The position numbers were made by a program, and so were the translations under genes. A stretch of DNA of 64,000 nucleotides from a virus: IMG/VR virus record IMGVR_UViG_3300020180_000015, positions 1 to 64,000 of that record. The stretch is one strand, 5' to 3'. The notes under the pieces were generated by a model that worked only from the letters and a program-made list of their open reading frames with translations, was not told the origin of the DNA and made no database searches. Every line of letters begins with the position of its first letter. Within the stretch, counting starts at the first letter, position 1. Shown here piece by piece: positions 19,499-59,064 of this stretch.

Positions 19499-19849
19499 CT
19501 ATAATCTTTCTGCTAAAAGATCAAGTGGTTGCGGCGTTTTGGTCGGCACTTCGTTTTTCACCCCATTGCCGTCTTGCCGGATGTCGCGTAGGCTGCGGCG
19601 CACCAGTCGGCGAAACTGCCTATCGTCGATGCTGAAGACCTTGCACAGCTTTTCGCGGTTGATCTTTCCCGGCTTCGTCCACCCTTCTTCCCACGCATAC
19701 ACGACGCTGTTACTCGTGCCGATGGCTTTCGCCAGATCGCGCTGGGACCAACGGCGGCTCTTATGGGCGCGCAGTTCGTAGATCGTATCGCCGTAGGCTT
19801 TAGCGATGATTATCACGGGACGCACCATCTTGCGGTCGCTGCGTCTCAT
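19499..19849 (-). CDS. XRE-family HTH transcriptional regulator, 116 aa
   Basis: The HTH core is WSQRDLAKAIGTSNSVVYAW (about residues 34-53) followed by EEGWTKPGKINREKLCKVF, the typical Cro/C1-type layout. It overlaps the dUTPase stop by 4 bp. The C-terminal tail is basic and Pro-rich. It lies beside the initiator control region, so it may act as a repressor of replication genes. Confidence 0.75.
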   Translation of the reverse strand: MRRSDRKMVRPVIIIAKAYGDTIYELRAHKSRRWSQRDLAKAIGTSNSVVYAWEEGWTKPGKINREKLCKVFSIDDRQFRRLVRRSLRDIRQDGNGVKNEVPTKTPQPLDLLAERL

Positions 19850-20289: not shown

Positions 20290-20291
20290 TG

Positions 20292-36997: not shown

Positions 36998-38293
36998 ATG
37001 TCAGACGATCCACGCATCAAACATTCAAAGCTGAAGGACTTCACCCAAGACCTTGAAAACGCGAATTTAGGCAGCGAACGCGGACAGCAAATGATCGAGG
37101 ACTCCTTCCGAGAGTTAGGCGCGGCGCGTTCGATGGTCGCGGATAAGAACCGCACACTGATCGCCGGAAACAAGTCCGCCGAGGCAGCCATCGCCGCTGG
37201 ACTTGAGGACGTGATCGAAGTTCACACGACGGGTAAAGAGGTGGTGATCGTCGTGCGTGACGACGTTGACTTGCTCGATGAAAGCGACTCGAAGGGTCGC
37301 CAGATCGCGTATCGAGATAATCGCTCCGCACAGGTATCCATGACGTGGGACGCAGCGCGGTTGCTCGTCGACATGAAAACCCGTCCGGAAATCCTAGCAA
37401 AGATATTCACAGCCGATGAATTAAAGGTGTTGATCGCTCCGGCACTCGAAGCTGGCACAGGGGATGTGCCGGATGCCAAACTGGATCAGATCGAAGAAAT
37501 TCATAAGAAGTGGGGCGCGAAAGAAGGCGACCTATGGCTCATCGAGTCAAAGTCGGGTTTCGGCGATCACCGGGTATTTTGCGGCGACTCGACCAAAGAT
37601 GAGGATGTGCGCCTCGCCATCGGCGCACTGCATCCGAATCTGTGCATGACCGACCCGCCGTATGGAGTTGATTACGATCCGGCATGGCGCGAGGATATGG
37701 ACATCGCACGCGGCGGCACGGGCGGCAACCACGCGATTGGCAAAGTACAGAACGACGATATTGTCGACTGGAGCGCCGCGTATCGCCTGTTCCCCGGCAA
37801 CGTGCTGTATGTGTGGCACGCCGGAGTATTCGCGCCGGAGGTCGGTATTAGCATCAAGGCGAGTGGATTTGATATTCGCGGTCAGATCATCTGGCGGAAA
37901 CAAGCGCCTGTGATGAGCCGGGGCGCGTACCACTGGCAACATGAGCCAGCATTCTACTCAGTCCGGCATGGGCAGACGGCGAACTGGAAAGGGGATCGCA
38001 AACAATCCACGATCTGGGACATCGCCAACATGAGCGCCGTGCAGGGCAGCGCCGAAGATAAACCGACGGGGCATTCTACCCAAAAACCCGCATCTGTTTT
38101 TACCCGATGCTTCCTGAACCACTCCCTTGCATCAGATGCAATCTACGATCCGTTTCTCGGATCGGGGACGGCGATTGCTGCGGCTGAGTCGTTGAGCCGC
38201 ATCGGGTGCGGGTTGGAGATCGATCCTCGCTATGTTTCGTTGGTCATGGAACGACTGTCGGATATGGGATTATCACCGAGGAGAGGCGAATGA
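36998..38293 (+). CDS. ParB-like nuclease domain fused to DNA methyltransferase
   Basis: Residues 1-110 resemble the ParB/sulfiredoxin-like domain found ahead of phage methyltransferases (PRIKHSKLKDFTQDLENANL...NRTLIAGNKSAEAAIAAGL). The C-terminal domain has CMTDPPYGVDYDP (motif IV), STQKPASVFTRCFLNHS and IYDPFLGSGTAIAAAESLSR (motif I), a beta-class adenine methyltransferase. This fusion is common next to terminases, as here (terminase begins 40 bp on), and may modify virion DNA before packaging. The methyltransferase call is firm, the N-terminal call is moderate. Confidence 0.85.
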   Translation: MSDDPRIKHSKLKDFTQDLENANLGSERGQQMIEDSFRELGAARSMVADKNRTLIAGNKSAEAAIAAGLEDVIEVHTTGKEVVIVVRDDVDLLDESDSKGRQIAYRDNRSAQVSMTWDAARLLVDMKTRPEILAKIFTADELKVLIAPALEAGTGDVPDAKLDQIEEIHKKWGAKEGDLWLIESKSGFGDHRVFCGDSTKDEDVRLAIGALHPNLCMTDPPYGVDYDPAWREDMDIARGGTGGNHAIGKVQNDDIVDWSAAYRLFPGNVLYVWHAGVFAPEVGISIKASGFDIRGQIIWRKQAPVMSRGAYHWQHEPAFYSVRHGQTANWKGDRKQSTIWDIANMSAVQGSAEDKPTGHSTQKPASVFTRCFLNHSLASDAIYDPFLGSGTAIAAAESLSRIGCGLEIDPRYVSLVMERLSDMGLSPRRGE

Positions 38294-38333: not shown

Positions 38334-38981
38334 ATGCGCTGTGCAGCGAAGTCTAAGCAATCCGGCGAGCAATGTAAGCGCCACGCTACGCCGGGTAGAA
38401 ACGTTTGCGTGATCCACGGCGGCAAGTCCCTCGCGGGACCGTTGTCGGCAACGTATATCCACGGGCGCTATTCTAAGTACCTGCCACACGGACTCGCGGC
38501 GAAGTACGAAGAAGCCATAACCGATCCTGACTTACTGAACCTCTCCGGCGAGATCGCGCTCGTGGATGCGCGGGCGATGGAGTTGCTCTCTGCGGTGAAT
38601 TCCGGCGACGCCCCGGCGCTGTGGGGCAAGTTACAAAAGGCATCGGGGGAACTCACAGCCGCGCAACAGACGGGGGATGCGTTCAAACTAGCGATTGCGC
38701 TGAACGACATGCTCGACCTGATCCATCGGGGATCGGCGGAAGCGGCGCGTTGGCAGGAAATCTATAACCTATTTGAACGCCGCCGTAAGCTGGTGGACTC
38801 CGAGCGCCGCCGACGTGAAGCGATGCAAAACTCAGTGAACGCCGAAGGAATGATGCTGCTTATTGCCGCAATAGCCGACTTGGTGAATCAGAATGTTACC
38901 GATCCTAAAGCCCGAACCGCCATTAGCGGAGGACTTGCTAACCTTATCTCTGCGCGAACTTCAACGACTCATCGATCCTGA
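38334..38981 (+). CDS. Putative terminase small subunit, 215 aa
   Basis: The N-terminus RCAAKSKQSGEQCKRHATPGRNVCVIHGGKS is a Cys/His motif (C...C...C..HGG) common in phage small-terminase-like and HGGxxS proteins. The rest is helical with a basic region (FERRRKLVDSERRRREAMQ). It precedes and overlaps the large terminase gene by 89 bp, the expected position for the DNA-recognition subunit. Confidence 0.65.
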   Translation: MRCAAKSKQSGEQCKRHATPGRNVCVIHGGKSLAGPLSATYIHGRYSKYLPHGLAAKYEEAITDPDLLNLSGEIALVDARAMELLSAVNSGDAPALWGKLQKASGELTAAQQTGDAFKLAIALNDMLDLIHRGSAEAARWQEIYNLFERRRKLVDSERRRREAMQNSVNAEGMMLLIAAIADLVNQNVTDPKARTAISGGLANLISARTSTTHRS

Positions 38982-40407
38982 TGCCGAGCAGCCGGCAGCG
39001 CCGCTATGGACGCCGTTGCCGGGTCCGCAAACGGATGCATACAATTCCCTTGCCGATGAGTTGTTCTACGGCGGCGCGGCGGGCGGCGGTAAAAGTTGGC
39101 TCGTGTTGGGGTTGGCGCTCACGGCGCATCGCCGCTCGATCATCTTCCGCCGCGAACACACGCAGTTAAGGCAATTGATCGACGACTCCCGCAAACTGCT
39201 TACAGGCAGGGGAGCGCGGTACAACGGACAGGATCACGTTTGGCGCGGCATCCCCGGTGCGCGGATATTGGAGTTCGGCGGTGTGCCACACGAAACAAAC
39301 GTGGAGCGGTATCAGGGTCGCGGTCACGACTTCAAAGCATTTGATGAAATCCCAACGTTCACCGGGCGTCAGTTCCGATTCCTGAAAGGGTGGATGCGTA
39401 CCGATATGCCGGGACAGCGAACGCGCACGGTATGCACTGGCAACCCGCCGACTGATCCAGAGGGGGAGTGGGTCGTCAAGTATTGGGCACCGTGGCTCGA
39501 TGCCGATCACCCTGACTACCCCGAAATCCCCGGCAAGCTGCGCTGGTTTGCCGTCATCGGCGAGAGCGACGTTGAGGTAGAGTCAGGGTCGCCGTTCATG
39601 CACGACGGCGAAGAAATCCAACCCCAATCGCGTACTTTTATCCCTGCACGCATTGAGGACAATCCGATCTACATGCAGACGGGGTATAAGTCTGTGCTGC
39701 AGTCCCTGCCCGAACCACTCCGCAGCAAGTTCCTATTCGGCGACTTCTCGGCTGCCGCAAATGATAACCCTTGGCAGGTGATCCCGACTGAATGGATACG
39801 GGCTGCACAAAGGCGATGGGACGGGATGGAGAAGCCCGAACTAGAACTGCGCTGCCTGAGTGCCGATGTCGCACGGGGCGGCGATGACAGCACGGTGATC
39901 GCACGGATGTTTGGGAACTGGATCGCGCCGTTGGAGAAGTTTCCCGGCAAGGACACGCCGGATGGGATCGCGGTCGCTGACTTGATCGGCAGCCGCTTGA
40001 GCGGCGATGCGGTCGCATTTATCGACGTGATCGCCGTTGGTACATCGCCGTATGACATTCTACGGATGCGTAAGAAGCGCGTCTACGGTGTGAACTTCAG
40101 TACCGCGTCAACAGTGAAGGATAAAACGAGGACGCTTGAATTTAGCAACCTACGCGCCGAAGTGTACTGGCGTGCGCGGGAAATGCTCGACCCCGCAAGT
40201 GAGTGGCAGATCGCGCTGCCGCCGGATCGTGAACTGCTGGTCGATCTCGCCGCACCGCGCTATTCGGCGGACGGACGCAAGGTGAAGATTGAACTGAAGG
40301 ACGAGATCAAGAAGCGTATCGGCAGATCACCAGACAAGGGCGACGCTGTTGTTATGCTGCTGTGGGGGGCGTATATGGGCGCAGGGCGTTCGGTCAGGAT
40401 GGTGTAA
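38893..40407 (+). CDS. terL: Terminase large subunit
   Basis: The 504-residue protein has the packaging ATPase motifs: Walker A GGAAGGGKS (about residues 60-68), the adenine-binding/arginine region RRSIIFRREHTQLRQL, Walker B region FKAFDEIP (about 150), and a C-terminal RNase H-like nuclease with LSADVARGGDDSTVI and DKGDAVVMLLWG. It translocates DNA into the prohead and cuts concatemers. ATG 38893 lies inside the small subunit gene. Confidence 0.95.
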   Translation: MLPILKPEPPLAEDLLTLSLRELQRLIDPDAEQPAAPLWTPLPGPQTDAYNSLADELFYGGAAGGGKSWLVLGLALTAHRRSIIFRREHTQLRQLIDDSRKLLTGRGARYNGQDHVWRGIPGARILEFGGVPHETNVERYQGRGHDFKAFDEIPTFTGRQFRFLKGWMRTDMPGQRTRTVCTGNPPTDPEGEWVVKYWAPWLDADHPDYPEIPGKLRWFAVIGESDVEVESGSPFMHDGEEIQPQSRTFIPARIEDNPIYMQTGYKSVLQSLPEPLRSKFLFGDFSAAANDNPWQVIPTEWIRAAQRRWDGMEKPELELRCLSADVARGGDDSTVIARMFGNWIAPLEKFPGKDTPDGIAVADLIGSRLSGDAVAFIDVIAVGTSPYDILRMRKKRVYGVNFSTASTVKDKTRTLEFSNLRAEVYWRAREMLDPASEWQIALPPDRELLVDLAAPRYSADGRKVKIELKDEIKKRIGRSPDKGDAVVMLLWGAYMGAGRSVRMV

Positions 40408-42962: not shown

Positions 42963-45218
42963 ATGCCATATATGGCAATTGAACGAGACGGTAAATTTAT
43001 GGTGTATGTGAGGGGCGCCGACAACAAACCCAAAGGGCGATCTCGCGGCACTTACACAGGCGATGATGCAAAGGATCAGGCGGCGGAGCAGTTAGATAAC
43101 CTACGGACTGTCGAACGCGGCGAACAGCAAAACCGCCGTCGCTACAATGGGCTTGATCTAGCTCCGCCTTCCGGCGTCCGTGCTGCGTGTCAGCGAGGAT
43201 TAGATCAAGAAGGCGGCACGGCGCTTCAGCGGCAAGCTGCCGAACTGATCACGTCCGGTTCGCAGTTATCCGTTCTCGCGATTCGCACTGTTGCGCGGCA
43301 GTTTAATAAGTCGCGCAAGTCGGGTGACGACCAACAGCATCTGCTGCGCGGCGGCGATGCTGGCGCGGTGTGGTTCAAGACCATGGCGGCGGCACTCGAT
43401 AATATGGACAGCGGCGTGAAGTCGGCAAAAGAAGTTGGTGAAGGCACGGAACGACGCCGTGAACGCGATGGGCCGTCCGGCATGGGCTTCGGCAGCGGCG
43501 GCGACTTTCGTCCGATTGATTATGACGCCTTGTCTCGTGAGTCATCGCGCCTGCAAAGGATGATGACAAGCGGTGATCTCGGACTCCCTGCGGCGTTGGG
43601 CGCGTTTGAACGAACCGTGCGCGAGGCGGCGAGTTTTGCAGGGGGTAGCAAACGACAGGCACTGTCCCGCGCCGCTGATGACATCGAGAAAGGCATTCCC
43701 CTGTTCAAGTCGCCGATGCCGTCCGATGATAACTCATCAGCAATGTCGCCGCACGAACGCGGCATCGCAATGTTGAAGAATGCATTCGTGGCAATACGAA
43801 TCGTGGCGAGTGCAAAGGCGATCACGGCATCCAACGCAAGCGGCGCGGGGTTTAGCATACCGCCGGATGACGACGGACTAGGAGCGACGGTGAGTATGCG
43901 TAAGGGCATGGAGGTTTACGTGAAGTCCACTGGCGAGATCGGCACGGTGCGCGGCGTGAAGCGAGTCGGCGACGGCGTGCGTTACAAGGTCGAGACGCCG
44001 AGCGGGTTTACGATCTGCAGCCGCAAGGGGATTATGTCGGCACGGGCGAAGGCGATCAAAGAAGCTGCCGTTGCATGTGACACGATCCAGAAGGCAGCGG
44101 ACGCTGAAACAGTCGATGCCGAAACAGTGAAAGCGGCGCTCAAGGCACTGGCGACCAGTTGGAAGATCGCCGATATGTCGACCCGCGAGAAGATGCAAAC
44201 ATCCTATGATGCGCTGATCGCCGCCCGTGCGATCCTGACGGCGTCGCCGGATGAATCAGACTTGGCGAAAAAGTATCTGGCGATGGCGAAAGCAGGACTC
44301 GATCCTATTGCCGAAGAAGGTGTGAAGGCATCTTACGACAATGGGGTGAAGCGGGCTGTCCAACTCCTGCAGATGGTTCGGGCGAGTTTGTCAGTCGATT
44401 CTCAACCGCAGCGATTGGGGAACGTGCGACTTTTAAACAAAGTCGACGGACTCCTTTCCCGATTGCTCACGACGGCATCGCCGAACGGACAGCGCGTGTT
44501 TCGCGGCATCCAAGAAACGCTGTCGCGGTTCACGGATAACGAGGAGTCGTGGTACCCGGCACAGACGCCGATCAGCGAGTGGGAGCAGGGGATCAGTGAT
44601 GCTTTGCGGCAGATGATAGCATTTGCCGGGGGGAGGGGCATTAAGGCGGAAGGTGAAGTCGAAAAGATGCGCGAAGTATTGATCAGCGCGTACAACGACA
44701 GGATCATCACCGGAGATGAAAGTAAACAGCTTGATCAACTGCGTCACCAGACGAAAAACCCGATCGGCGACCTCGATTACTTTGATTATTCGATCAACGC
44801 ATACGGCACGAAACCTGAATATCTCGCCAAACGTAAAAAGGTACTGCAGCGACTCAACAGCATTATTCGGAAGCGCAATCGCCTAGTCGACGAGATCAAT
44901 CAGCGGGCGGCAAAACCTCAGACAAAGAATACGGCGGAAGCGGCGCTGAAGGCACTGCAGGACGTGGTCGGCGAGATCACGACCGCTGGAGCATCAACCG
45001 ATGACCAGCAGGAGCGAATGCTTGAAGCCGTCGATACGTTACATCTGTACGCCGCCGCCGCCGGAGAAAAGGCGATCAAGAGCCTTGAGCCACTCGAAGA
45101 GGCGTTATACGCAGAACCTGACGACGGACTGAGCGAGTGGCAGCAGCGGGTTGTCAGCATGATCGAAGATTACCAAGCGAAGATCGCCAGTGAACCAGAA
45201 CCAGAAGCGGTGACCTAA
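42963..45218 (+). CDS. Hypothetical large protein between terminase and portal, 751 aa
   Basis: I do not recognise this protein. AAATAAGGGAGTCAGCG precedes ATG 42963. The N-terminus (MAIERDGKFMVYVRGADNKPKGRSRGTYTGDDAKDQAAEQL) is basic; the remainder is mostly helical. A small beta domain lies near residues 305-340 (MRKGMEVYVKSTGEIGTVRGVKRVGDGVRYKV), KOW/SH3-like in pattern. It overlaps the portal start by one base (TAATG). A structural or ejected internal protein is possible. Confidence 0.6.
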   Translation: MPYMAIERDGKFMVYVRGADNKPKGRSRGTYTGDDAKDQAAEQLDNLRTVERGEQQNRRRYNGLDLAPPSGVRAACQRGLDQEGGTALQRQAAELITSGSQLSVLAIRTVARQFNKSRKSGDDQQHLLRGGDAGAVWFKTMAAALDNMDSGVKSAKEVGEGTERRRERDGPSGMGFGSGGDFRPIDYDALSRESSRLQRMMTSGDLGLPAALGAFERTVREAASFAGGSKRQALSRAADDIEKGIPLFKSPMPSDDNSSAMSPHERGIAMLKNAFVAIRIVASAKAITASNASGAGFSIPPDDDGLGATVSMRKGMEVYVKSTGEIGTVRGVKRVGDGVRYKVETPSGFTICSRKGIMSARAKAIKEAAVACDTIQKAADAETVDAETVKAALKALATSWKIADMSTREKMQTSYDALIAARAILTASPDESDLAKKYLAMAKAGLDPIAEEGVKASYDNGVKRAVQLLQMVRASLSVDSQPQRLGNVRLLNKVDGLLSRLLTTASPNGQRVFRGIQETLSRFTDNEESWYPAQTPISEWEQGISDALRQMIAFAGGRGIKAEGEVEKMREVLISAYNDRIITGDESKQLDQLRHQTKNPIGDLDYFDYSINAYGTKPEYLAKRKKVLQRLNSIIRKRNRLVDEINQRAAKPQTKNTAEAALKALQDVVGEITTAGASTDDQQERMLEAVDTLHLYAAAAGEKAIKSLEPLEEALYAEPDDGLSEWQQRVVSMIEDYQAKIASEPEPEAVT

Positions 45219-48187
45219 TGGGGTTGTTAAACGAGATAGGGCAAGTTTACGGCGACGGCGTGAAGGCTGCTGTGAAGTCGCTGAGTAATCTACCGCGCCG
45301 TCCGGCGGCGACACGCTACCAGCGTCAAGCGCCGTTTGTGCGCGGCGCTCCTGCTCGGCGGCAGCAGTCGTTGATCATCAATGACGAACTGCAGCACGCG
45401 GTCAAGTCCGTCTCGTATAGCGATTTCATAAACGACTTCATAAATGCCGAAGGTACGAACTGGCGGAACAATTACTCCGAACAGCAGATCGAGTCGGCGT
45501 ATGCCACGTCGGTTTACCTGTTTGCGGCGATGCGCCGCGTGGCGAACCTGTTCTCCATGGTGCGCTTTGTCGCCGAAGTCGACAAGGGCGGCGATTGGCA
45601 GCGGCTGCCAGATACTCACCACTTAAATAAAATATTCACAGTCGCCGGCGCACGGTTCATGTACCACCTGTATATGTATTACGCGCTCTACGGCACGACG
45701 CTTGTTTATAAACGCAAGACCCGTAAGGCACTCGCCGCCTACCAGCGTGGCAAACTAATCAGCGGGTATTTGGAGGGCGGGATCGCAGGATTATCGGTCA
45801 TCCCTAATTCGCGCTGGGAGATATTCGAGGACGAGTATCAGGGCGAGATTCAGGGATTTAGCCTGAACGAGCCGATGGGCGAACTGAAGGCGGGGATGCG
45901 GGATCGGGACGAGTTCGTGTACATCCACGACTTTGACCCGCGCTTTTTGAACAACGGCATCTCGATGGTAAGTCTAGCGATCAACAACGCGATCACCAAT
46001 GCCGCCATCGCACGATGGGCGGCACACTACTTTATGTCCGGCGCTATGCCGCTGCTGCTCATCAGCACTGAAGAAGACCCGGCGATGCAGACCGAAGCGG
46101 ACTTGATCCGGCAAAAGAATTTTATCGAGCGGGCGTGGCAAGGGTTGTTCGGCAAGTTTGCGATGCGTGCCGTATTCACGGATCGCAAACTGAACGTGCA
46201 GCAAGCCGGGATTGATGCCGAGAAAGTTCAAGCACCGGATTTGAACCGTGACTCATTGAACGCCATCGCTTCGGTATTCCAGATCGCGCCGGATTTAATC
46301 GTCCCGCCCGAAGGCGGCAGCGACAACGCACGGCATAAGTTCCTCATGATGGATGCATTTCGTTCGGCGATCCTGCCTGTCGCATGGCAGATGACAGACG
46401 TATTCAATGCCGACATGGGGCTGCACGATGCGAACGTGCGGATCGTGGTCGCAGAAGATGAGATCACGGCGCTGGATGCAGATCGCGCCGACAATGCGAC
46501 CACTGAAACAGGGCTGTTTACCTCCGGTATCCAGACGTTCGGGGAAACCCGTGACCAGATGCGCTTCAAGCCATCGCCGGGACTCAAGCTGCTGGAGAGC
46601 TTTATCAATATCAATGGGCGGCTTCAGTCGGTTGAGCGAGTCCTGCGGGATGACCAACTGCCAAGCGACTTTATCATGCAGTACGCGCCGACTGCGTGGG
46701 ATGCCGGGATCGTCAAGCGTTCCGAAGTGCGAAAGCTAATGTTTAATCTGCCGACGCCTGCCGCTGAGGACGGGTACAAGTATGAAGTAGTGCCAGACCC
46801 ATCGGCGGGCGGCGGCTTCGGCGGAGGTGGTACGCCGTCACCAGAACCGCCTGAAAACGGCGGAGGTTCGCTTCCTGCGGGTGATCGTCCCCAACTGCCC
46901 GGCAAAACGCCACAGGGCGGCACGGTCGCGCCGACGGTCGCTCCGACGGACGGTGACAAGGCAGTCGATCAAAATCGTCAAATTGTCGATTTTGCCGGGA
47001 TCGAAAGCGCCGAGACGGATGGGCGGATCATCCCGGTGACTCCGGTTGCGCGTTTGACGGCGAGTGCCACACAGCAGCATTCGGCATGTGCGTTACTCAT
47101 GATCGGCGACGACCCACTGATCCAGACGGTTGCCACGCAGTTAGAGATCATGCTCGACGGCGTCCCTGCTATTTGGCAAGACCCTGAAACGTATCACTGT
47201 ACCCTCGTTTACAGTGATCATGCGACGGACGACCAGATCGCGGCGGCGCAGAAACTTATGCCGGAATACATGCCGGACATCACTTTGCGCGTGGATGGGT
47301 TGATCACGTTTGAGACGCAGGATGGTTTGTGCATCGCGCTGCGTGTGGATACGACGCAGGGATTGGAAGGGTTGCAGAGCCACACTCGCACGTCGTTCAG
47401 TAACGCGGCGCTGCCGATTTCGCCTTACTCTGCTTCGGGGGCGTATATGCCACATATCACGCTGTGCTATGTGCCGGACGAGACTCCCGTGCCGGAATTC
47501 ACCTGCGCGATCAGCGTCGTGCCGCAGTGTATCCAAGTCACCCGCGACGAGTACAAAGTGGTCTTTGAACTGCCGTCGATCCGCGAGGCAGCGGGGGACG
47601 ACCCGAACCACGCGCACAACCGACAGATGCTGATCGACGACGCCGAGATTACACGGCAGTTCGTGCAGTCGGCGCTGCGGACATGGCGCGATACGGGGGA
47701 GCCGGGTCCCGGCTTGAGCGACGCGGTCAAGAACGTGGTACGTGAAGCACTGGCGCAGGATGCGGCGATGGCGTGGGACGCCGCGCTGAAGGCGTGCGAT
47801 GACGGGTACTTTGACGACAGCGCCGATTTGACGGACGGGCATAATCCGATATTGGGTGTAATGGCAAAGGCGAAACTAGCGATGCAGGAAACACCTGAAG
47901 CCGAACTGGATGCGTGGGAACGCTCCGCGTTCCGTAATGGGGTATCGAAGGCGGCGAGTCGGTTTGAAGTGAACCTGCTACCATTGGCGCTTGAGCAGAC
48001 GGTGAAGGCGAGACTTGCCGATGTCAAAACGAAAACGGAAATCAAACTCGTGTTCAATGACGCCCGTGCCGCACTCGCCGAGAGTGCGCCGAAGGCAGTG
48101 GACGAGGACTCGCTGATGGCATGGGCGGAACGGGTCGCCGGGATGGACGGGTTGGGCGACTTGCTCGACGATGACTTGACTTCCTAA
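45218..48187 (+). CDS. Portal protein fused to a 2H phosphoesterase-like domain
   Basis: Residues 1 to about 520 are a phage portal: AYATSVYLFAAMRRVANLFSMV, WEIFEDEYQGEIQGF, VSLAINNAITNAAIARWAAHYF, SLNAIASVFQIAPDLIVPPEG and FNADMGLHDANVRIV fit the HK97/SPP1-like fold. A Gly/Pro linker (about 525-590) follows. Residues about 610-780 hold two HxT motifs, YHCTLVYSDH (His660, Thr662) and MPHITLCYV (His746, Thr748), spaced as in 2H (LigT/CPDase) phosphoesterases. The C-terminal 200 residues are helical. The 2H part may hydrolyse cyclic nucleotides or 2'-5' bonds. At 989 residues it is far longer than a normal portal. Confidence 0.85.
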   Translation: MGLLNEIGQVYGDGVKAAVKSLSNLPRRPAATRYQRQAPFVRGAPARRQQSLIINDELQHAVKSVSYSDFINDFINAEGTNWRNNYSEQQIESAYATSVYLFAAMRRVANLFSMVRFVAEVDKGGDWQRLPDTHHLNKIFTVAGARFMYHLYMYYALYGTTLVYKRKTRKALAAYQRGKLISGYLEGGIAGLSVIPNSRWEIFEDEYQGEIQGFSLNEPMGELKAGMRDRDEFVYIHDFDPRFLNNGISMVSLAINNAITNAAIARWAAHYFMSGAMPLLLISTEEDPAMQTEADLIRQKNFIERAWQGLFGKFAMRAVFTDRKLNVQQAGIDAEKVQAPDLNRDSLNAIASVFQIAPDLIVPPEGGSDNARHKFLMMDAFRSAILPVAWQMTDVFNADMGLHDANVRIVVAEDEITALDADRADNATTETGLFTSGIQTFGETRDQMRFKPSPGLKLLESFININGRLQSVERVLRDDQLPSDFIMQYAPTAWDAGIVKRSEVRKLMFNLPTPAAEDGYKYEVVPDPSAGGGFGGGGTPSPEPPENGGGSLPAGDRPQLPGKTPQGGTVAPTVAPTDGDKAVDQNRQIVDFAGIESAETDGRIIPVTPVARLTASATQQHSACALLMIGDDPLIQTVATQLEIMLDGVPAIWQDPETYHCTLVYSDHATDDQIAAAQKLMPEYMPDITLRVDGLITFETQDGLCIALRVDTTQGLEGLQSHTRTSFSNAALPISPYSASGAYMPHITLCYVPDETPVPEFTCAISVVPQCIQVTRDEYKVVFELPSIREAAGDDPNHAHNRQMLIDDAEITRQFVQSALRTWRDTGEPGPGLSDAVKNVVREALAQDAAMAWDAALKACDDGYFDDSADLTDGHNPILGVMAKAKLAMQETPEAELDAWERSAFRNGVSKAASRFEVNLLPLALEQTVKARLADVKTKTEIKLVFNDARAALAESAPKAVDEDSLMAWAERVAGMDGLGDLLDDDLTS
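46970..46994. repeat. Dispersed palindrome, copy 5
   Basis: CAAAATCGTCAA-A-TTGTCGATTTTG, 12-bp arms with one mismatch. It lies in the linker of the portal gene, just before the 2H domain begins. Confidence 0.8.
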
Positions 48188-48203
48188 TCTTTCGAGTTAA
48201 GAT
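48176..48203 (+). promoter_or_regulatory. Promoter, diverged copy of the cassette promoter
   Basis: TTGACT, 16 bp, TAAGAT; the CTTGACTTCC...AATCTTT.GAGTTAAGATG block matches the promoters at 55688, 56187 and 58500. Confidence 0.75.
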
Positions 48204-48242
48204 GTGTATCAATAGTGTGCTGAAAAGCGAAAGGGAAATACG

Positions 48243-48644
48243 ATGGTCACAAAACGGCAATTGGCAATCAAGGCGGCACGAGTGCGTAGCCTGAAAACTG
48301 CGCCAGTCACGGCGGCATGGTTTAATCGTGCGGGCATCACGGTTGCGCGGATGCAGCGCACATGGGGTGCGCGGCAGGGGCTGGTGTGGGCGGATTTCGT
48401 TAGTATCTGGTCTCCAATTAACGGATACAGAAACGACCTACCGCCGAGCATCGTTCGTGCAGCCGGTCAACTGTACGACGTGGCTGCAAATCTGAACGGA
48501 CATCGCGCAGAGACCCAACCGCAGGGTTGGATGCCGGGGATGGTATTCCCGGCGGAAACCAGAAACTGGAAGCGGGTAGACGGATTACTCGCTCGGTTGA
48601 AGGCGGAACTTGCCGATGCCGCCGACACACTATCAAGCGGTTAA
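48243..48644 (+). CDS. Small basic protein, distant relative of the RQ-IKAA family
   Basis: MVTKRQLAIKAARVRSLKTA aligns with MNRRQKVVIKAAVKRG of the three cassette genes downstream, and its promoter is also related. The body (TAAWFNRAGITVARMQRTWGARQGLVWADF) is Trp-containing and helical. It lacks the conserved right end of the other cassettes. GGGAAATACG precedes the start. Function is unknown. Confidence 0.55.
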   Translation: MVTKRQLAIKAARVRSLKTAPVTAAWFNRAGITVARMQRTWGARQGLVWADFVSIWSPINGYRNDLPPSIVRAAGQLYDVAANLNGHRAETQPQGWMPGMVFPAETRNWKRVDGLLARLKAELADAADTLSSG

Positions 48645-50520: not shown

Positions 50521-50551
50521 CCCGCATGGAAACTTCCATGCGGGTTTTTTG
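50521..50551 (+). terminator. Intrinsic terminator just before the capsid gene
   Basis: CCCGCATGGA-aact-TCCATGCGGG (10-bp stem) then TTTTTTG. It lies 17 bp before the capsid start and about 35 bp after the -10 above, so it would also face transcripts from that promoter. Confidence 0.85.
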
Positions 50552-50567
50552 TTTTAGTCGAGGTGTC

Positions 50568-52916
50568 GTGACCGGAATTCTGCTCCATAAGGCGGGCGGC
50601 GCAATCAAATCCGTACAGCGCGGTAACGGGCTAATCGAGGGGTATTTGATCTCCTTCGGCGGACCCGCGGATACCGATCTGGAGGGGCAGTGGTTCACGC
50701 CACGCACAGACATCCGTGAGGACTATTTCCGCGACTATCCGATGCTGTTTCATCACGGCATGGATTCGGCAGTGGGGTTAGACCCCATTGGGCGGATTTT
50801 GCGGGTCGACAAAGACAACGTGGGATGGCACGCCAAAGCCCAGCTTGATCTTCACGATCAATACGGGCGGCAGGTGAGTGAACTGCTTGATCTTTACCCG
50901 TTGGGGTGGAGTAGCGGTTCAGTGGATCACCTTGTCGTAATTGCGGACACTGGCGAAATTCTGGTGTGGCCCCTCTTTGAGGGGACTGTCACGCCGACGC
51001 CGGCGCAGTCTCGCAAAACGTCGGTGCGGGCTTTGAAAGCGGTGTTAACTCGCGGTCAAACGGGAATTCCGAGAGGGCTTCGTGCTAGAGCGGATGCCGG
51101 GATCGCTGCCAATCTCGAAAGCAGTGGAGGAACGGTCATGGCGTTGAGCGCGCGTAGAAGCACGGCTCAGTACGTGAAGAGTGTACTTAAGAAGGCGGGG
51201 TTTAAACCGACCCCCGAAGAAGAGATGGCGATTGCTGCCGATCTCGAAAGCAGTGGAGGAACGGTCATGGCGTTGAGAGCGCGTAGAAGCACGGTTCAGT
51301 ACGTGAAGAGCGTACTCAAGAAGATGGGGTTTAAAGCGACCCCCGAAGAAGAGATGGCGATTGCTGCCGATCTCGAAGTACAGGATGCGATGCTGTCGGA
51401 TGATGAGTTTGGCGATGCAACGTTGGCGGATGATGAGTTTGACGATGCAATGATGTCGGATGATGAGTTCGGCGACGCGATGCTGTCGGATGATGAGTTC
51501 GGCGACGCGATGATGTCGGATGATGAGTTCGGCGACGCGATGCTGTCGGATGATGAGTTCGGCGACGCGATGCTGTCGGATGATGAGTTCGGCGACGCGA
51601 TGCTGTCGGATGATGAGTTCGGCGACGCGATGCTGTCGGATGATGAGTTCGATCCGGCGATGCTGAGTTACCGCAAGTCGCGCCGCCGGACAGCGCGTTC
51701 GCGTCAGAAGTCGATGACTGTGGATCAGTCGCAGGAGATCAACGCCATGAGGCGGCGCATCAATGCGTTGGAATTGCAAGAAGCGCCGGGGGAGCGGATG
51801 ATCGGTATGAAATCACTGCGTGTGACACGAGATCGGGCGGATCAGCCCGGTGCGTACAAGTCGGTATTCACCAAGTACATACGCTTCGGTGAGTTCCGCA
51901 TGAACGACGATGATCGCCGTACTCTGCGAAAAGGGCAGGTGGATTACGGTGCAGCCGACCGGGTGACGGGCGTCAAGGCTTTGACATCCAGCACATCGGG
52001 CAGCGTCGGGTTTTCCGTGCCGGACGACTTCATTGCGGAATTGAACCGCAACATCATGGTTGATGCAGTGACGGCGAATGAGTGTAAGCGCCGCACCACG
52101 ACCAGCGATACGGTCTTGATCCCCGATCTGCAGACGACTGATGCTCGCCGTGCGTATGCCGGGCGCACCACATGGATCGGCGAAACTGCCGCAAACCAAG
52201 CGGAGACGGATGTGACGCCGATCACAATGGGGCAGATTCAACTGCCGATTCACGTCTTACTCGTCTCGACCGTCGCATCACTTTCCAGTCTCGAAGATAG
52301 CGCGTTCGATTTACAGGCGTACATCACTGAGGCGTTCAGCGAAATGATCGCCATCGAACACGAAGAATTGATCTGGTCGGGCAACGGGCAGGGGAAGATG
52401 CGCGGCATCGTCACCGATACTCGCGTGACTGGCAGCGCGTCGACGGGTGTGTCCAGCGTGAGCGGATTCATCGCCAGCGGCAGCGCGGCGTCCATTGCCG
52501 ACGCCGACAAAATCCGGTCATTGACCATGCACTTGCCGCCTCAATACCGGGCGCGTGCCAAGTGGTACATGAACAGCAACACGGCAAACATCATCATGCA
52601 GTTGAAGGACGCGAACGGGCGTTATCTGTGGGGCGATGAACAGGGTTTGAATCAGGGTGCGCCAACCACACTCCTGAACAAGCCGATTGTGTTCAATGAA
52701 TGGGCATCGGACGTGGCGGCGGGAGCATTCCCGATCTTACTCGCCGATCTCAGTCGTGGGTACACCATCGCTAATCGTGTGGAATTCAGCGTCCGCCGCT
52801 TTGATGACAGCACCTATGCGGTACAAGACAACACGCTCGTGTTGGGGCGTGCGCGTATGGGCGGCATGGTCACACAGCCCATTGCTATCAAGGCACTGAA
52901 GATCGCCGTCAGCTAA
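50568..52916 (+). CDS. HK97-type protease-scaffold-major capsid single polypeptide
   Basis: I place the start at GTG 50568 (MTGILLHKAGGAIKSV) behind GAGGTG, since ATG 50526 lies in the terminator. Residues about 15-135 match HK97-type prohead protease (GYLISFGGPADTDLEG; YPMLFHHG with catalytic-type His; LYPLGWSSGSVDHL with Ser). Two 43-residue repeats (about 182-267) and nine acidic DDEF(G/D)-type 10-residue repeats (about 275-364) form a scaffold-like delta region. Residues from about 411 are an HK97-fold major capsid (SGSVGFSVPDDFIAELNRN; TTWIGETAANQAETD; NRVEFSVRRFDDSTYAVQDN). Normally these are two or three genes. Confidence 0.88.
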   Translation: MTGILLHKAGGAIKSVQRGNGLIEGYLISFGGPADTDLEGQWFTPRTDIREDYFRDYPMLFHHGMDSAVGLDPIGRILRVDKDNVGWHAKAQLDLHDQYGRQVSELLDLYPLGWSSGSVDHLVVIADTGEILVWPLFEGTVTPTPAQSRKTSVRALKAVLTRGQTGIPRGLRARADAGIAANLESSGGTVMALSARRSTAQYVKSVLKKAGFKPTPEEEMAIAADLESSGGTVMALRARRSTVQYVKSVLKKMGFKATPEEEMAIAADLEVQDAMLSDDEFGDATLADDEFDDAMMSDDEFGDAMLSDDEFGDAMMSDDEFGDAMLSDDEFGDAMLSDDEFGDAMLSDDEFGDAMLSDDEFDPAMLSYRKSRRRTARSRQKSMTVDQSQEINAMRRRINALELQEAPGERMIGMKSLRVTRDRADQPGAYKSVFTKYIRFGEFRMNDDDRRTLRKGQVDYGAADRVTGVKALTSSTSGSVGFSVPDDFIAELNRNIMVDAVTANECKRRTTTSDTVLIPDLQTTDARRAYAGRTTWIGETAANQAETDVTPITMGQIQLPIHVLLVSTVASLSSLEDSAFDLQAYITEAFSEMIAIEHEELIWSGNGQGKMRGIVTDTRVTGSASTGVSSVSGFIASGSAASIADADKIRSLTMHLPPQYRARAKWYMNSNTANIIMQLKDANGRYLWGDEQGLNQGAPTTLLNKPIVFNEWASDVAAGAFPILLADLSRGYTIANRVEFSVRRFDDSTYAVQDNTLVLGRARMGGMVTQPIAIKALKIAVS
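51111..51371 (+). repeat. Two 129-bp direct repeats in the capsid gene
   Basis: About 51111-51239 and 51240-51368 are near-identical and encode LESSGGTVMALxARRSTxQY plus KSVLKK and TPEEEMAIAAD. A third copy starts and stops after one turn. In frame, so likely a recent tandem duplication. Confidence 0.85.
51384..51663 (+). repeat. 30-bp tandem repeats encoding acidic decapeptides
   Basis: About nine copies of a 30-bp unit encode D-A-M-L/M-S-D-D-E-F-G. The first units are the most diverged and the last ones nearly identical, suggesting recent expansion. The long open frame on the opposite strand is a by-product of this repeat. Confidence 0.9.
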
Positions 52917-54539: not shown

Positions 54540-55691
54540 ATGCTGACCTATGCTACGCTGCAGACATTTGCCAAAGTCAAAGGGATCAGCCTCGATCTAT
54601 TATCTGACGAGGATGGCAGAATGCTGCGGGAATACCTGCGGCGTGGCACACGCGAGATTGATCGGATCACGCGGCGGCGATTCTTTCCGTTTCACATGAC
54701 TCGCCGTTACAGCATCCCGATGACTTATGCCGATCTACGTAACCGCGCACTGATCCACGAGGACTTACAACTCGACGCCGATCTCATGGAAGTCGTCCGG
54801 GTACAGGTGGGTACTGGCACCGTGATCGACTCCGGCGAGGATGTGCCGCTCGGCGGACTGACGGCGATTGCGACGACCTTCACTGCAACTGATGCCGATG
54901 GGCTTGACGATCAGAACATTGATCGCTTTGCCGTCGGGGTCGTACTGCAGATCAAGAACGAGCAATGCGTTATCCGCGCACGGGATACTGGTACCAACGT
55001 CGTCACCTTAGAGCGCGGCGCATTCGGCACAATAGCCGCAGCCCACGCCGCCGGAGTGCAAATCTCCAAGAATGTCCTGACGACACTCGAACCGGGGATC
55101 GACTTTCATCTGCTCGACTTCAACATCAACCCGAAGTTTGCTATCCGGCTTGTGTTTCCGAACACGTGGGCGGGTCGCTATACAGGCGTGGCGTGGAGGT
55201 CGCGTTATCCTCAAATCTATGTCACAGGCTTTTGGGGGTTTCACGATCAGATGCAGGAGGCGTGGGTCAATACCAACGACCCCATTCCTTCGGGCGGGAT
55301 TACTGCCGTTGCGACGACATGGAATGCCCTCGCGGTGGATGGCACGGACGCCGCGAATGAGCTTCGCTTCCTTGTGGATCACCTGTACCGCGTCGAGAAT
55401 GAATTGATGTGGTTGACGGCTGCCGACGATAACACTGGCGCGTTGACGGTGCTACGCGGGCAGCATGGCACACTCGTTGCCGCGCACGCCGCCGGAACAC
55501 CAGTCTATCGATTCGCCGTGTTGGAGGATATTCGGAAGTCGTGCTTCAATATCGCCAAGACGCTACGGGACTCTGACGACAGCGTTGGCGGGCGTCAGGG
55601 CGTGACCGAAGTGAGCGTTGGGGTGAAGATCACCTATGCCGCCGATGTTGCCGAAACATTGAAGCATTACATCCGGTCGTATATCGCTTGA
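54540..55691 (+). CDS. Head-tail connector-like protein with beta repeats, 383 aa
   Basis: The N-terminal helices (YATLQTFAKVKGISL...LREYLRRGTREIDRITRRRFFPF) resemble the head-tail connector/adaptor family. Two homologous beta segments follow: GLTAIATTFTATDADGLDDQ...TNVVTLERGAFGTIAAAHAAG and GITAVATTWNALAVDGTDAA...LTVLRGQHGTLVAAHAAG, an internal duplication of about 80 residues. The C-terminus is helical. It ends IA* (GCTTGA), where TGA forms part of the next promoter's -35. Confidence 0.65.
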   Translation: MLTYATLQTFAKVKGISLDLLSDEDGRMLREYLRRGTREIDRITRRRFFPFHMTRRYSIPMTYADLRNRALIHEDLQLDADLMEVVRVQVGTGTVIDSGEDVPLGGLTAIATTFTATDADGLDDQNIDRFAVGVVLQIKNEQCVIRARDTGTNVVTLERGAFGTIAAAHAAGVQISKNVLTTLEPGIDFHLLDFNINPKFAIRLVFPNTWAGRYTGVAWRSRYPQIYVTGFWGFHDQMQEAWVNTNDPIPSGGITAVATTWNALAVDGTDAANELRFLVDHLYRVENELMWLTAADDNTGALTVLRGQHGTLVAAHAAGTPVYRFAVLEDIRKSCFNIAKTLRDSDDSVGGRQGVTEVSVGVKITYAADVAETLKHYIRSYIA

Positions 55692-55716
55692 CTTCCATAA
55701 TCTTTTGAGTTAAGAT
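55688..55716 (+). promoter_or_regulatory. Cassette promoter, copy 1
   Basis: TTGACT (55688-55693), 17 bp, TAAGAT (55711-55716). The TGA is the stop codon of the connector gene. Confidence 0.8.
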
Positions 55717-55771
55717 GGCGTTAGATTGAGTGCATAATTCCCCGCGTTGCGGGGGGGGGTGGTGGTTGGAA

Positions 55772-56134
55772 ATGAACAGACGGCAAAAAGTGGTAATCAA
55801 AGCGGCGGTCAAGCGGGGCGTAGCAAGAAGGTTAACTGATCCAGCAGTACGCTCGACACTAGTCGCTTTTATAACAAGAATTAGATCGTCGCTCCGACGT
55901 GGGTACGTGAATAGCGATGATTCAGAGGGGCTATACCTTTACATTATCAAACAAGGAGATGATACACCCGAATTAGGTAGGATCTGGAGAGCGGCGTGGC
56001 GTATCCGTCTAATTGTCGCCGGCTCTCCGAGCGAGGGTCAAATGAAGGAAATTAATGCCAAGTCGAAGGCGGTGATCGAGGCTTGGATGCGGACGTTGTT
56101 AGAGCATCTTCGCTCTACCAATATTCCTTCTTGA
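55772..56134 (+). CDS. Cassette gene 1 (RQ-VVIKAA family), 120 aa
   Basis: MNRRQKVVIKAAVKRGVARR is the conserved N-terminus shared by all three cassette genes. The body aligns with cassette gene 2 (LTDPAVRS...AFITRIRSSL.RGYVNS.DS.GL). It is small, basic and helical. Upstream is a GCGGGG hairpin. The C-terminal residues TNIPS fall in the cassette's right end. Function is unknown. Confidence 0.65.
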   Translation: MNRRQKVVIKAAVKRGVARRLTDPAVRSTLVAFITRIRSSLRRGYVNSDDSEGLYLYIIKQGDDTPELGRIWRAAWRIRLIVAGSPSEGQMKEINAKSKAVIEAWMRTLLEHLRSTNIPS

Positions 56135-56186
56135 TGCGCCGCAGCGGATTACGGACATGGCTTATGACTCATCGTCGCTGATCCGC
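56123..56186 (+). pseudogene. Duplicated 5' fragment of the 168-aa gene
   Basis: About 64 bp match the first codons of the gene at 56617 (LLDAPQRI.DMAYDSSSLIR), but the start is ATA instead of ATG and the frame runs into the next cassette promoter. It marks a tandem duplication that copied the cassette together with the beginning of the following gene. Confidence 0.75.
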
Positions 56187-56215
56187 TTGACTTCCATAAT
56201 CTTTTGAGTTAAGAT
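56187..56215 (+). promoter_or_regulatory. Cassette promoter, copy 2
   Basis: TTGACT (56187-56192), 17 bp, TAAGAT (56210-56215). Confidence 0.8.
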
Positions 56216-56268
56216 GGCGTTGGATTGAGTGTATAATTCCCCGCGTTGCGGGGGGGAAGTGGTTGGAA

Positions 56269-56613
56269 ATGAACAGACGGCAAAAAGTGGTAATCAAAGC
56301 GGCGATCAAATTGGGCGTAGAAAAAAGGTTAACTGATCCAGCAGTACGGTCAAGAATAGCCGCTTTTATAACAAGAATTAGATCATCACTTCAACGTGGT
56401 TACGTGAACAGCCAAGATTCAAATGGGTTGTTCGACTACGTTACCGCGCAAGCAGAAAATATTCCCGGAATGCGTGCGAGTTGGAAACCGGTGACACGTA
56501 TTCAGCGAATTGTCGACGATCTTCCGGGTGATGGGCAGATGAAGGAGATTGATGCCGAGTCGAAGGCGGGCATAGAAGTTGGGCTACGGGTGTTGTTAGA
56601 GTATCTTCGATAA
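56269..56613 (+). CDS. Cassette gene 2 (RQ-VVIKAA family), 114 aa
   Basis: MNRRQKVVIKAAIKLGVEKR begins at ATG 56269 (a TTG at 56263 is the alternative). It is homologous to cassette gene 1 along its length with many substitutions (QDSNGLFDYVTAQAENIPGM), so the duplication is not brand new or the copies are under diversifying change. The last codon ends four bases before the next gene's ATG. Confidence 0.65.
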   Translation: MNRRQKVVIKAAIKLGVEKRLTDPAVRSRIAAFITRIRSSLQRGYVNSQDSNGLFDYVTAQAENIPGMRASWKPVTRIQRIVDDLPGDGQMKEIDAESKAGIEVGLRVLLEYLR

Positions 56614-56616
56614 CCA

Positions 56617-57123
56617 ATGTTACTTCTTGATGCGCCGCAGCGGATTGCGGATATGGCTTATGACTCATCGTCGCTGATCCGCTTCACGGCGCACCTGCGG
56701 CAGTCGTCTCTCGACAGCCTCAAGCGTCCGGCGGTACTGGTGGAGGCGAATGATGCCGAGTATCCGCCGACTGCGGCGGGGATCGAGAAACCGACTGAGA
56801 CGTTTATCCTGTCGGTTGTCGGACAGAAATACGGCGTGGGTGCGCCGGGGGCAGCCGAACTCGAACTCCGGCAGGTCGCGCACGATTTGGCGGTGTACTT
56901 TTGGCGGCGGTCTCAGCTTCAATTCAGCAATCTGCGCGGCGCAAAGTCGAGCGAACTGCCGCCACTCACCGGAGTGGAGTCGAGCCGCCTAAGCCGCCGA
57001 TCCTTTGTGACAACGGTCACACGAGGAGAGGACGGGGAGGGATCGTTTTGGGGGACAGAATTCACGCTCACGCTCACGCTGGCTGCGCGTGCGCTTGAAG
57101 TACTTGTGCCGAATAGGGGGTGA
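56617..57123 (+). CDS. Hypothetical neck/tail-region protein, 168 aa
   Basis: I do not recognise a specific family. Position between connector and tail tube suggests tail completion. Mixed helix/strand (SLIRFTAHLRQSSLDSLKRPAVLVEAND; TEFTLTLTLAARALEVLV). There is no Shine-Dalgarno at ATG 56617, so translation may depend on the upstream cassette gene that stops just before it. Its 5' end is duplicated at 56123. Confidence 0.55.
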   Translation: MLLLDAPQRIADMAYDSSSLIRFTAHLRQSSLDSLKRPAVLVEANDAEYPPTAAGIEKPTETFILSVVGQKYGVGAPGAAELELRQVAHDLAVYFWRRSQLQFSNLRGAKSSELPPLTGVESSRLSRRSFVTTVTRGEDGEGSFWGTEFTLTLTLAARALEVLVPNRG

Positions 57124-57126
57124 AAT

Positions 57127-57151
57127 CAAATTCGTCAAATTGTCGAATTTG
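57127..57151. repeat. Dispersed palindrome, copy 6
   Basis: CAAATTCGTCAA-A-TTGTCGAATTTG: 12-bp arms with one mismatch pair. It lies directly after a stop codon and 12 bp before the start of the 30-aa ORF. Confidence 0.85.
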
Positions 57152-57162
57152 GGGGGGGCGGC

Positions 57163-57255
57163 ATGAAACAGGTCAAGTTTGTCCTTATCCGCATTGCCGA
57201 CTGGATCGACGATAAGGTACGCAGTCGGCGTACCTTGTTTCCTATCGCAATCTAA
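57163..57255 (+). CDS. Small protein, 30 aa
   Basis: MKQVKFVLIRIADWIDDKVR begins behind GGGGGGGGCGGC and ends at TAA 57253-57255. Its small size makes reality uncertain, but the ribosome site is good and the amphipathic basic helix is plausible. It is preceded by palindrome 6. Confidence 0.4.
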   Translation: MKQVKFVLIRIADWIDDKVRSRRTLFPIAI

Positions 57256-57299
57256 TTCATACTGTGATCATATCATCTAATCGTCCGCACGATATGTCC

Positions 57300-57338
57300 C
57301 GGCGCACCAGAGAAGTTCTCTGGTGCGCCGTTTTTTTG
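57300..57338 (+). terminator. Intrinsic terminator before the tail tube gene
   Basis: CGGCGCACCAGAG-aagtt-CTCTGGTGCGCCG (13-bp stem) then TTTTTTT. It ends 17 bp before the tail protein start; GGGGAAAGGG after it is the ribosome site. Confidence 0.9.
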
Positions 57339-57354
57339 GGGAAAGGGAACAACA

Positions 57355-58242
57355 ATGGCACAAATTGAAAGTGGTGGGCAGCACGGCTTGTATAAGATCG
57401 TCGCCCAACTCGTCGGCAGCGACGGCGTGAGCTATGGGGTTGCGGGCAGCGGCATTGCCGCCGGATCGACCAGTAACGCTTACGTGCTGGATCATCCGGT
57501 GAATGCGAATATCACCCTGCCGGACGGGGCGACGATAGATTTCACCGCGTCCGACCAATGGGTCACATCGTACCAGTATGGTCCCAGTTCGATGGGATCA
57601 TTCGACTTCGAGTTAGAAAATCTTGACTCGAATTTCATCGCACTCTGCACAGGAACACTGTCAGATCAGACAACGAATGCGCTCTGGACTGAATACACAC
57701 ATAATGCCCACGCCGGCAATTTCCCGCAGATCAGTCTGATGTTCATTTATCGCATCCAGTCGTTTGAAGCGGCGACATTCGGCGCGACCAAGTACCTGCA
57801 CACGATCTACCCGCGCAATTGGGTGCGCCCGAAGAAAAACGCGCAGCAGTATCAGCAAAAATCGACATCGCCGTATCAGGTGACTCCGGCGGGCGGCGCT
57901 CGGCATATCAACGGTCACTTGTTCGGCACGAACTTAGCGTCGACGGATAACCGGGTGGTGAGTTACAACATCATCACCGACAACCCGCTGCACATGGCGG
58001 TCTGTCATGTTGATGGCTCACCCGAAAGCATTATCACGGCGTATCAGCCTGTGAGCAGCGCAGTCGGCACATCGTCGAGTACCCGCAATCAACTCGTCAA
58101 GTGGATATCGCCGACGGCGACGCTCGGCGTGGCGGATACGATCACGACAGCCACTGGAACGTTTGCAGTCGGCACGGCGCTCACCGTCGCATCCGGCAAC
58201 ATCGTAACCGTGCTGTACGAAACAGCCTACGTGCCAGTGTAG
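57355..58242 (+). CDS. Putative major tail (tube) protein, 295 aa
   Basis: A beta-rich protein with YVLDHPVNANITLPDGATIDFTASDQWVTSYQYG, FDFELENLDSNFIALCTG and VTPAGGARHINGHLFGTN, as expected of tail tube proteins. Position is right: after neck genes, before chaperones and tape measure. Strong ribosome site and its own terminator-insulated leader fit high expression. Family call by pattern and context. Confidence 0.65.
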   Translation: MAQIESGGQHGLYKIVAQLVGSDGVSYGVAGSGIAAGSTSNAYVLDHPVNANITLPDGATIDFTASDQWVTSYQYGPSSMGSFDFELENLDSNFIALCTGTLSDQTTNALWTEYTHNAHAGNFPQISLMFIYRIQSFEAATFGATKYLHTIYPRNWVRPKKNAQQYQQKSTSPYQVTPAGGARHINGHLFGTNLASTDNRVVSYNIITDNPLHMAVCHVDGSPESIITAYQPVSSAVGTSSSTRNQLVKWISPTATLGVADTITTATGTFAVGTALTVASGNIVTVLYETAYVPV

Positions 58243-58248
58243 CCGCCG

Positions 58249-58503
58249 ATGGACGAGCGATTAGGGCAGCGAAATGAAACAGGGGCGGTGATCCAGTATC
58301 CCGCCCTGTACGCCAACGGTGCGCCGTTCACGCCGCGCACGGGCATCACAACGGTAAAGGTGGGGCGGGGCTATTTTTACGCGCTGCAACCCGGCATTGC
58401 GGTCGCGCCGAACCACGCCGAACTGGGCGCGCTGGCTGCGCCGCCGCCGGAAGTGGACACCGATGAGGACGGGGATTATCCAGTCGCCGCCGAAATCGCT
58501 TGA
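58249..58503 (+). CDS. Hypothetical tail-region protein, 84 aa
   Basis: Six bases after the tail tube stop. Pro/Ala-rich (GALAAPPPEVDTDEDGDYPVAAEIA), with RTGITTVKVGRGYFYALQPG. The family is unknown. It ends IA* with TGA inside the following cassette's -35, the same junction as the connector gene. Confidence 0.55.
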   Translation: MDERLGQRNETGAVIQYPALYANGAPFTPRTGITTVKVGRGYFYALQPGIAVAPNHAELGALAAPPPEVDTDEDGDYPVAAEIA

Positions 58504-58528
58504 CTTCCATAATCTTTTGAGTTAAGAT
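58500..58528 (+). promoter_or_regulatory. Cassette promoter, copy 3
   Basis: TTGACT (58500-58505), 17 bp, TAAGAT (58523-58528). Confidence 0.8.
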
Positions 58529-58579
58529 AGCGTTAGATTGAGTGCATAATTCCCCGCGTTGCGGGGGGGGTGGTTGGAA

Positions 58580-59026
58580 ATGAACAGTCGGCAAAAAGTG
58601 GTAATCAAAGCGGCGATCAAGCGGGGCGTGCCGCGCACGAAAGACATCACCAGCGGAATACAAGAGGGCGTCGGCTCGTTGATGAGACAGGTTAGTCGCG
58701 CATCCGAACAGGGCGGTAATCCTAATTCCCCGGCGACAGATGTTTACAACGCTGCCGATCTCTACAAATTGGCGCAGGGATCGCGGTCATTACTCATGCG
58801 AGTACAGAACCTCCCCGATGGGTTTCTCAAGGACAAGGTAGGCGGCTCTTTAAACAGAGCAAACGCCGGTTTGAATAAGCTGAGTGCCAAGCTCGGACAG
58901 CGAACTGCGGGCGAGGCGAGATGGCAGTTACAAAGTATCAGCTTGACTCTTGAGGATGCCGATAAATGGCTGGCTAATCACCGCGTTATAATTGAACGGC
59001 GGCGGCTAACCAATGTTACTTCTTGA
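58580..59026 (+). CDS. Cassette gene 3 (RQ-VVIKAA start, different body), 148 aa
   Basis: MNSRQKVVIKAAIKRGV is the shared N-terminus, after which the sequence diverges completely: helical and Ser/Ala/Leu-rich (SLMRQVSRASEQGGNPNSPA; AKLGQRTAGEARWQLQSISL). The end LTNVTS lies in the conserved right end. It looks like a chimera of the shared leader peptide and another coding body. Confidence 0.65.
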   Translation: MNSRQKVVIKAAIKRGVPRTKDITSGIQEGVGSLMRQVSRASEQGGNPNSPATDVYNAADLYKLAQGSRSLLMRVQNLPDGFLKDKVGGSLNRANAGLNKLSAKLGQRTAGEARWQLQSISLTLEDADKWLANHRVIIERRRLTNVTS

Positions 59027-59040
59027 TGCGCCGCTAACCC

Positions 59041-59064
59041 AACACCCCGCACGGGGTGTTTTTT
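59041..59064 (+). terminator. Intrinsic terminator
   Basis: AACACCCCG-ca-CGGGGTGTT followed by TTTTG, right after cassette 3. Confidence 0.85.

Follow-up and report, generated by a model that had tools for sequence, protein, structure and literature searches.

The window (bases 1-64000 of the 83,551-bp IMG/VR virus record IMGVR_UViG_3300020180_000015) contains, among its tail genes, three gene units that start at 55684, 56184 and 58496 and resemble one another far above chance. Each has a left end with a predicted promoter, a hairpin leader and the first codons of a small gene (the cargo gene), a body, and a short right end. A record-wide sequence comparison established that three units with shared ends are real, as the original prediction had stated, and no further copy is present in the whole record. 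The virus is a tailed phage of bacteria, probably a siphophage.

Composition of the three units

The left homology covers about 135 bp (55683-55821, 56184-56318 and 58495-58629), with mismatches at 8/134 positions between copies 1 and 2, 3/133 between copies 1 and 3 and 7/132 between copies 2 and 3 (94-98% identity). Its components, TTGACT-17-TAAGAT, the CCCCGC/GCGGGG hairpin, GGTTGGAA-ATG and the N-terminal sequence MN[R/S]RQKVVIKAA, are all as originally described. Unit 1 follows gene A (54540-55691, plus strand, 383 aa), a tail/neck-type gene (PHROG tail protein phrog_1101, E=1.5e-14), whose TGA stop codon falls in the -35 region of the unit. The unit 1 promoter (55688-55716; this and all features listed below for the units lie on the plus strand) overlaps an operator-like palindrome (55696-55720), and is followed by the leader motif GATTGAGTG (55724-55732) and, in the 5′ untranslated region (5′UTR), by the hairpin CCCCGC-GTT-GCGGGG with its G run (55740-55759), which counts 9, 7 and 8 nt in units 1, 2 and 3, respectively. 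The hairpin is not an intrinsic terminator since no U tract follows it; folding of the 5′UTR overall is no better than that of shuffled sequences, the G-C hairpin alone being strong. G runs of 7-9 stand close before start codons at five places in the tail region (55751, 56250, 57151, 58563 and 59436).

Unit 1 carries cargo gene 1 (55772-56134, 120 aa) and a relic of the start of gene B (56117-56191), which has lost its start codon and is a product of tandem duplication. Unit 2 has its promoter at 56187-56215 and cargo gene 2 (114 aa) at 56269-56613, with the TAA stop codon 3 nt ahead of the start codon of gene B (56617-57123, 168 aa, without an assigned family). Unit 3 (58495-59034) appears to have entered between the final sense codon of the gene at 58249-58503 and a TAA codon with a terminator; it consists of the promoter (58500-58528), cargo gene 3 (58580-59026, 148 aa) and a right-end repeat. 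The terminator behind it (59041-59060) is probably the original one of the gene at 58249-58503, and units 1 and 2 have none. The right end, for which about 26 bp had been proposed, is present and shared by all three units over 28 nt (at 56115, 56611 and 59007). At its source in unit 2 (56611-56638) it comprises the stop codon of cargo gene 2 and the first codons of gene B; the copy in unit 3 (59007-59034) is identical to it, and in copy 1 the repeat runs on to 75 nt (56117-56191 compared to 56613-56687).

Codon adaptation of cargo genes 1, 2 and 3 is 0.53, 0.53 and 0.61, compared to 0.63-0.75 in the structural neighbours; in units 1 and 2, both codon adaptation and third-position GC content (GC3) fall below those of every structural gene measured, and unit 3 is intermediate. 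The cargo proteins gave no useful family or sequence match in Pfam, PHROGs, NCBIfam, PDB or plasmids. The predicted models are helical bundles (predicted local distance difference test, pLDDT, 69 and 75), and a fold search with them yielded no match at E <= 0.001. An anti-defence or exclusion role of the cargo, suggested by size, variability and duplication, is a guess.

A promoter and gene related to the units had also been proposed at 48176-48644. The related operator-promoter is there (48176-48203, plus strand) and includes the codon at which the portal-domain gene stops; it precedes a plus-strand gene for 133 aa (48243-48644; weak tail-protein profile match, E=0.0012) that keeps IKAA at residues 9-12. 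The likeness ends there: the spacing of the promoter is 16 and not 17, the 5′UTR is a different one, and the right end is missing. A terminator lies behind the gene. That IKAA is kept despite the different 5′UTR is a hint that the N-terminal peptide is important as protein.

The ends of the units and the origin of the copies

The promoter of the left end overlaps the palindrome ATCTT-7-AAGAT, which occurs at ten sites of the phage besides the units. Eight of these ten palindromes overlap a promoter of the form TTGAC..-10, against an expectation of 1.65% of positions, a probability that is overstated because the palindrome itself holds a -10-like sequence, though this does not apply to the TTGAC at its correct spacing. 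By a matrix derived from eight palindromes at other places in the phage, with the unit sites left out, the unit sites rank among the best remaining matches (19.6-19.9), and the site at 48183 scores 16.3. The best scores in eight Markov sequences ranged from 12 to 22, thus single unit sites are not significant by the matrix alone and it is the promoter overlap that carries weight. The leader motif GATTGAGTG stands behind the -10 at a nearly equal place in three early promoters on the minus strand (144, 2260 and 5543), which match the consensus at 12/12 positions. On account of the palindrome-promoter family and the leader motif, we read the left end as the phage's own control sequence, a predicted operator-promoter followed by an early-gene leader motif. 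The right end, as judged from its coding sequence (MLLLDAP...), is the beginning of gene B.

Members of the operator-promoter family are found phage-wide (9624, 13771, 16197, 25881, 29348, 31463, 33764, 40911 and 41931), with a consensus near TATAATCTTTNNNGTAAAGATTATA. A MarR-type protein encoded at 34633-35061 is a candidate only for the regulator of the family.

The relic of gene B in copy 1 joins unit 2 at CGCTT, a 5-bp microhomology shared between gene B (CCGCTTCAC) and the end of gene A (TCGCTTGAC). This junction marks copies 1 and 2 as a tandem duplication whose breakpoint lies at the microhomology within gene B. Unit 3 opens with ATCGCTTGAC, like unit 1, to which its left end is nearest, and closes with the authentic gene B start as found at unit 2, which is what would be expected if it had been copied from a gene A-unit-gene B locus. 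When the flanks of unit 3 are joined in silico, GAA-TAA results, which reads ...VAAE* with an in-frame stop directly ahead of the terminator at 59041. Such a stop would be met by chance in about 1/20 cases, hence it supports insertion but does not prove it. Insertion at an apparent empty site is thus the probable origin of unit 3, and the original proposal of insertion between phage genes without damage has support in the case of this copy.

Divergence of the bodies and competing explanations

Cargo proteins 1 and 2 share 62% identity and are homologous, whereas cargo 3 is unrelated to them beyond the first 17 codons, with no significant similarity left once the 18 N-terminal residues are removed; both relationships had been predicted. 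Between copies 1 and 2 the flanks have diverged by 5% and the bodies by 31%, that is, about six-fold more. Mismatches amount to 4/84 in promoter and UTR, 2/42 in the first 14 codons and 3/56 in the non-coding relic, compared to 63/206 in body codons 46-114 (Fisher 4e-7 and 4e-5 versus flanks). Synonymous divergence (dS) is 0.61 in the body and 0.13 in codons 1-17. Protein selection does not raise dS, therefore the common ancestor of the bodies must be much older than that of the flanks. With body 3 unrelated between ends that are about 95% identical, these values uphold the predicted swapping of cargo: the bodies have most likely been exchanged rather than mutated in place, as far as a single genome can tell. 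Either the duplication came first and one body was replaced later, or a single step produced the tandem pair from differing alleles of two related phages; gene conversion that keeps the flanks alike would be a third route, and all three involve recombination.

We propose that the units are moron-like accessory modules, under predicted phage control, that have spread through recombination at microhomologies and diversified through homologous exchange; we regard this explanation as reasonably probable though well short of certain. The module would consist of a predicted phage-controlled promoter with its operator, a hairpin leader and a small, fast-varying gene, and its original site would be the gene A / gene B junction, where related phages may carry other bodies. 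Homologous recombination within the shared ends would swap the bodies, and illegitimate recombination at short matches would generate extra copies, units 1 and 2 possibly stemming from one unequal event between two related phages. More speculatively, the products might be made early, or else by a prophage, and serve in conflicts with the host or with other phages (anti-defence, exclusion), a role that would explain the variability, the duplication and the foreign composition.

Several observations weigh against this proposal. No relative with the gene A/gene B locus was found, and alternative bodies at one site in other phages have not been seen. Gene conversion between the copies could also keep the flanks similar. 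The N-terminal sequence is common to four genes whose bodies are otherwise different, which hints at a role at the protein level that a plain moron does not need. It is conceivable, albeit quite unlikely, that operator-promoter, leader and N-terminal peptide (RQKVVIKAA / KRQLAIKAA) form the fixed front end of a cassette system with exchanged bodies, in which the peptide acts as a functional tag, for instance in binding to the virion or a partner, and is not a by-product of duplication. A paralogous family with ongoing gene conversion, the ends being kept alike and the bodies having drifted too far to convert, seems unlikely, if a little less so. Identity does fall from the ends to the middle in copies 1 and 2, and the helix order is similar in the predicted models of cargo 2 and 3; these models are, however, of low confidence, body 3 has no residual sequence similarity, and the right tract of unit 3, with only 28 nt, is short for conversion. 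Diversification of the bodies by fast divergence under diversifying selection after an old, simple duplication, without any sequence exchange, would agree with body mismatches that are spread evenly over the codon positions (20, 20 and 24 of 69), as under weak constraint. The contrast between the body dS and the 5% divergence of the non-coding relic speaks against it, as does a body 3 wholly different between nearly identical ends, and we consider it very unlikely.

The original prediction of a self-contained mobile element with conserved ends finds no support, given what the two ends are and the tandem origin of copies 1 and 2. A true mobile cassette, moved whole between fixed ends by an enzyme acting in trans and picking up new cargo, is very improbable. 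The matching ends of the three units, which occupy two loci, the undamaged neighbours and the clean appearance of the unit 3 insertion at its apparent empty site would suit such a cassette. Its right end is, however, coding sequence of gene B without a fixed boundary, since copy 1 has 75 nt of homology there and copy 3 has 28 nt, and its promoter end occurs elsewhere in the phage without the remainder of the unit. The units show neither inverted repeats nor a target duplication nor a recombinase, a trans-acting one not having been searched for exhaustively, and the left end had no match in exact and degenerate searches of 50,697 GenBank phage records and IMG/VR. Targeted diversification, for example by a diversity-generating retroelement, can be ruled out for practical purposes: conserved ends around a variable body and a terminase (TerL) related to that of Bordetella phage BPP-1 are reminiscent of it, but the record encodes no reverse transcriptase (in a search with positive controls), the changes between copies 1 and 2 have no adenine bias, and body 3 is no mutated version of the others but another sequence altogether.

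Relatives, precedents and implications

Searches of IMG/VR with gene A, cargo 2, cargo 3 and the major head protein found no relatives, and the TerL search found three IMG/VR loci at 49-56% identity and one Ottowia prophage. The comparative evidence is thin, since the closest TerL is 56% identical and no close relative was found; the best TerL relative has neither gene A nor cargo. A profile of cargoes 1 and 2 gave four matches in 274 genomes of the Ottowia class (E about 0.003-0.009), which were taken as chance. The TerL relative (record G001; L010/L012, 52975-55761 and 1-159) also carries repeated segments of gene starts, about 125 bp in length, close to its ends.

Elsewhere in the window are the genes for TerL (38893-40407), the portal-domain protein (45218-48187; 989 aa, with a weak RNA-ligase-like match at residues 655-761), the major head protein (50526-52916; internal tandem repeats at 51101-51695, a 129-nt pair and about nine 30-nt units) and a ParM-like actin (26255-27328). 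At least seven DNA-methyltransferase-like proteins are encoded across 13823-24907 and 36998-38293, five of them by consecutive genes, and there is a weak Mom-like match at 35952-36392. Seven scattered near-perfect palindromes AAATTCG[A/T]CAAATTGTCGAATTT (16239, 24076, 29305, 36967, 46971 and 57128, and 83208 of the record) differ from the promoter operator; with a ParM-like gene in the phage, they are possible partition or repressor sites.

To call the units an undescribed element, as was done originally, is too strong, because phage morons and the promoter-early stem-loop (PeSL) modules of T4-like phages are close precedents. The PeSL modules were reportedly treated by Arbiol (2010) and Comeau (2014). 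In two papers that cite these (PMC4503421, PMC3950731), PeSL modules appear as a repeated promoter and stem-loop before variable small genes, with shuffling by recombination proposed; our units resemble them in this arrangement and in lacking a transposase. Unlike the modules as presented there, the repeats here take in the first codons as well as part of the gene that follows, the hairpin of the late units is not a terminator, and the phage is not T4-like. Morons, known from lambdoid and Mu-like phages, are single promoter-bearing genes of odd composition between structural genes, acquired by a mechanism that is unclear (PMC4378225). Our units share with them the predicted promoter of their own, the position between structural genes and, clearly for units 1 and 2 and less so for unit 3, a composition unlike that of the neighbours; they differ in occurring as three copies in one genome with near-identical starts and different bodies, in that no terminator follows except behind unit 3 and the relative at 48243, and in that the promoter belongs to a phage regulon and does not stand alone. 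In archaeal viruses, many small anti-defence genes, unrelated or duplicated, lie behind one consensus promoter (PMC11065993). The near-identical promoter and the side-by-side duplication of family members are similar here, while the promoter is of bacterial type, the location is the tail region, and anti-defence is a guess. Tandem duplications of an anti-defence locus of T4 arise at microhomologies of 6-10 bp (PMC9391042). As in this amplification of dmd-tifA, a small accessory gene was duplicated in tandem at a short microhomology, but here the bodies of the two copies are far more divergent than the flanks.

The left arm (92-7665, minus strand) is an array of early genes behind repeated leaders. 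It contains three composites of terminator, promoter and GATTGAGTG, at the early promoters named above, and eight near-identical GCCCC-GGGGC hairpin leaders (908, 1603, 3323, 4521, 5140, 6343, 6840 and 7634), which directly precede different or partly paralogous genes. All eight GCCCC..GGGGC hairpins of the record are confined to this arm. The three composites fit the terminator-promoter form of PeSL better than the late units do. The array has the look of PeSL-type modular shuffling and could prove of greater interest than the tail-region units, which can be read as the same modular habit in the tail region.

How phages acquire small accessory genes inside essential blocks without a transposase is a long-standing question, and here a single genome bears the marks of the proposed route: a promoter module under predicted phage regulation, a tandem copy made at a microhomology together with a non-coding relic that can be dated, an insertion with an apparent empty site, and divergent bodies. 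If relatives confirm the route, shared control modules would promote gene exchange beyond the T4 group, and the operator or leader motif would serve to pick out accessory genes, possibly of anti-defence function, in related phages.

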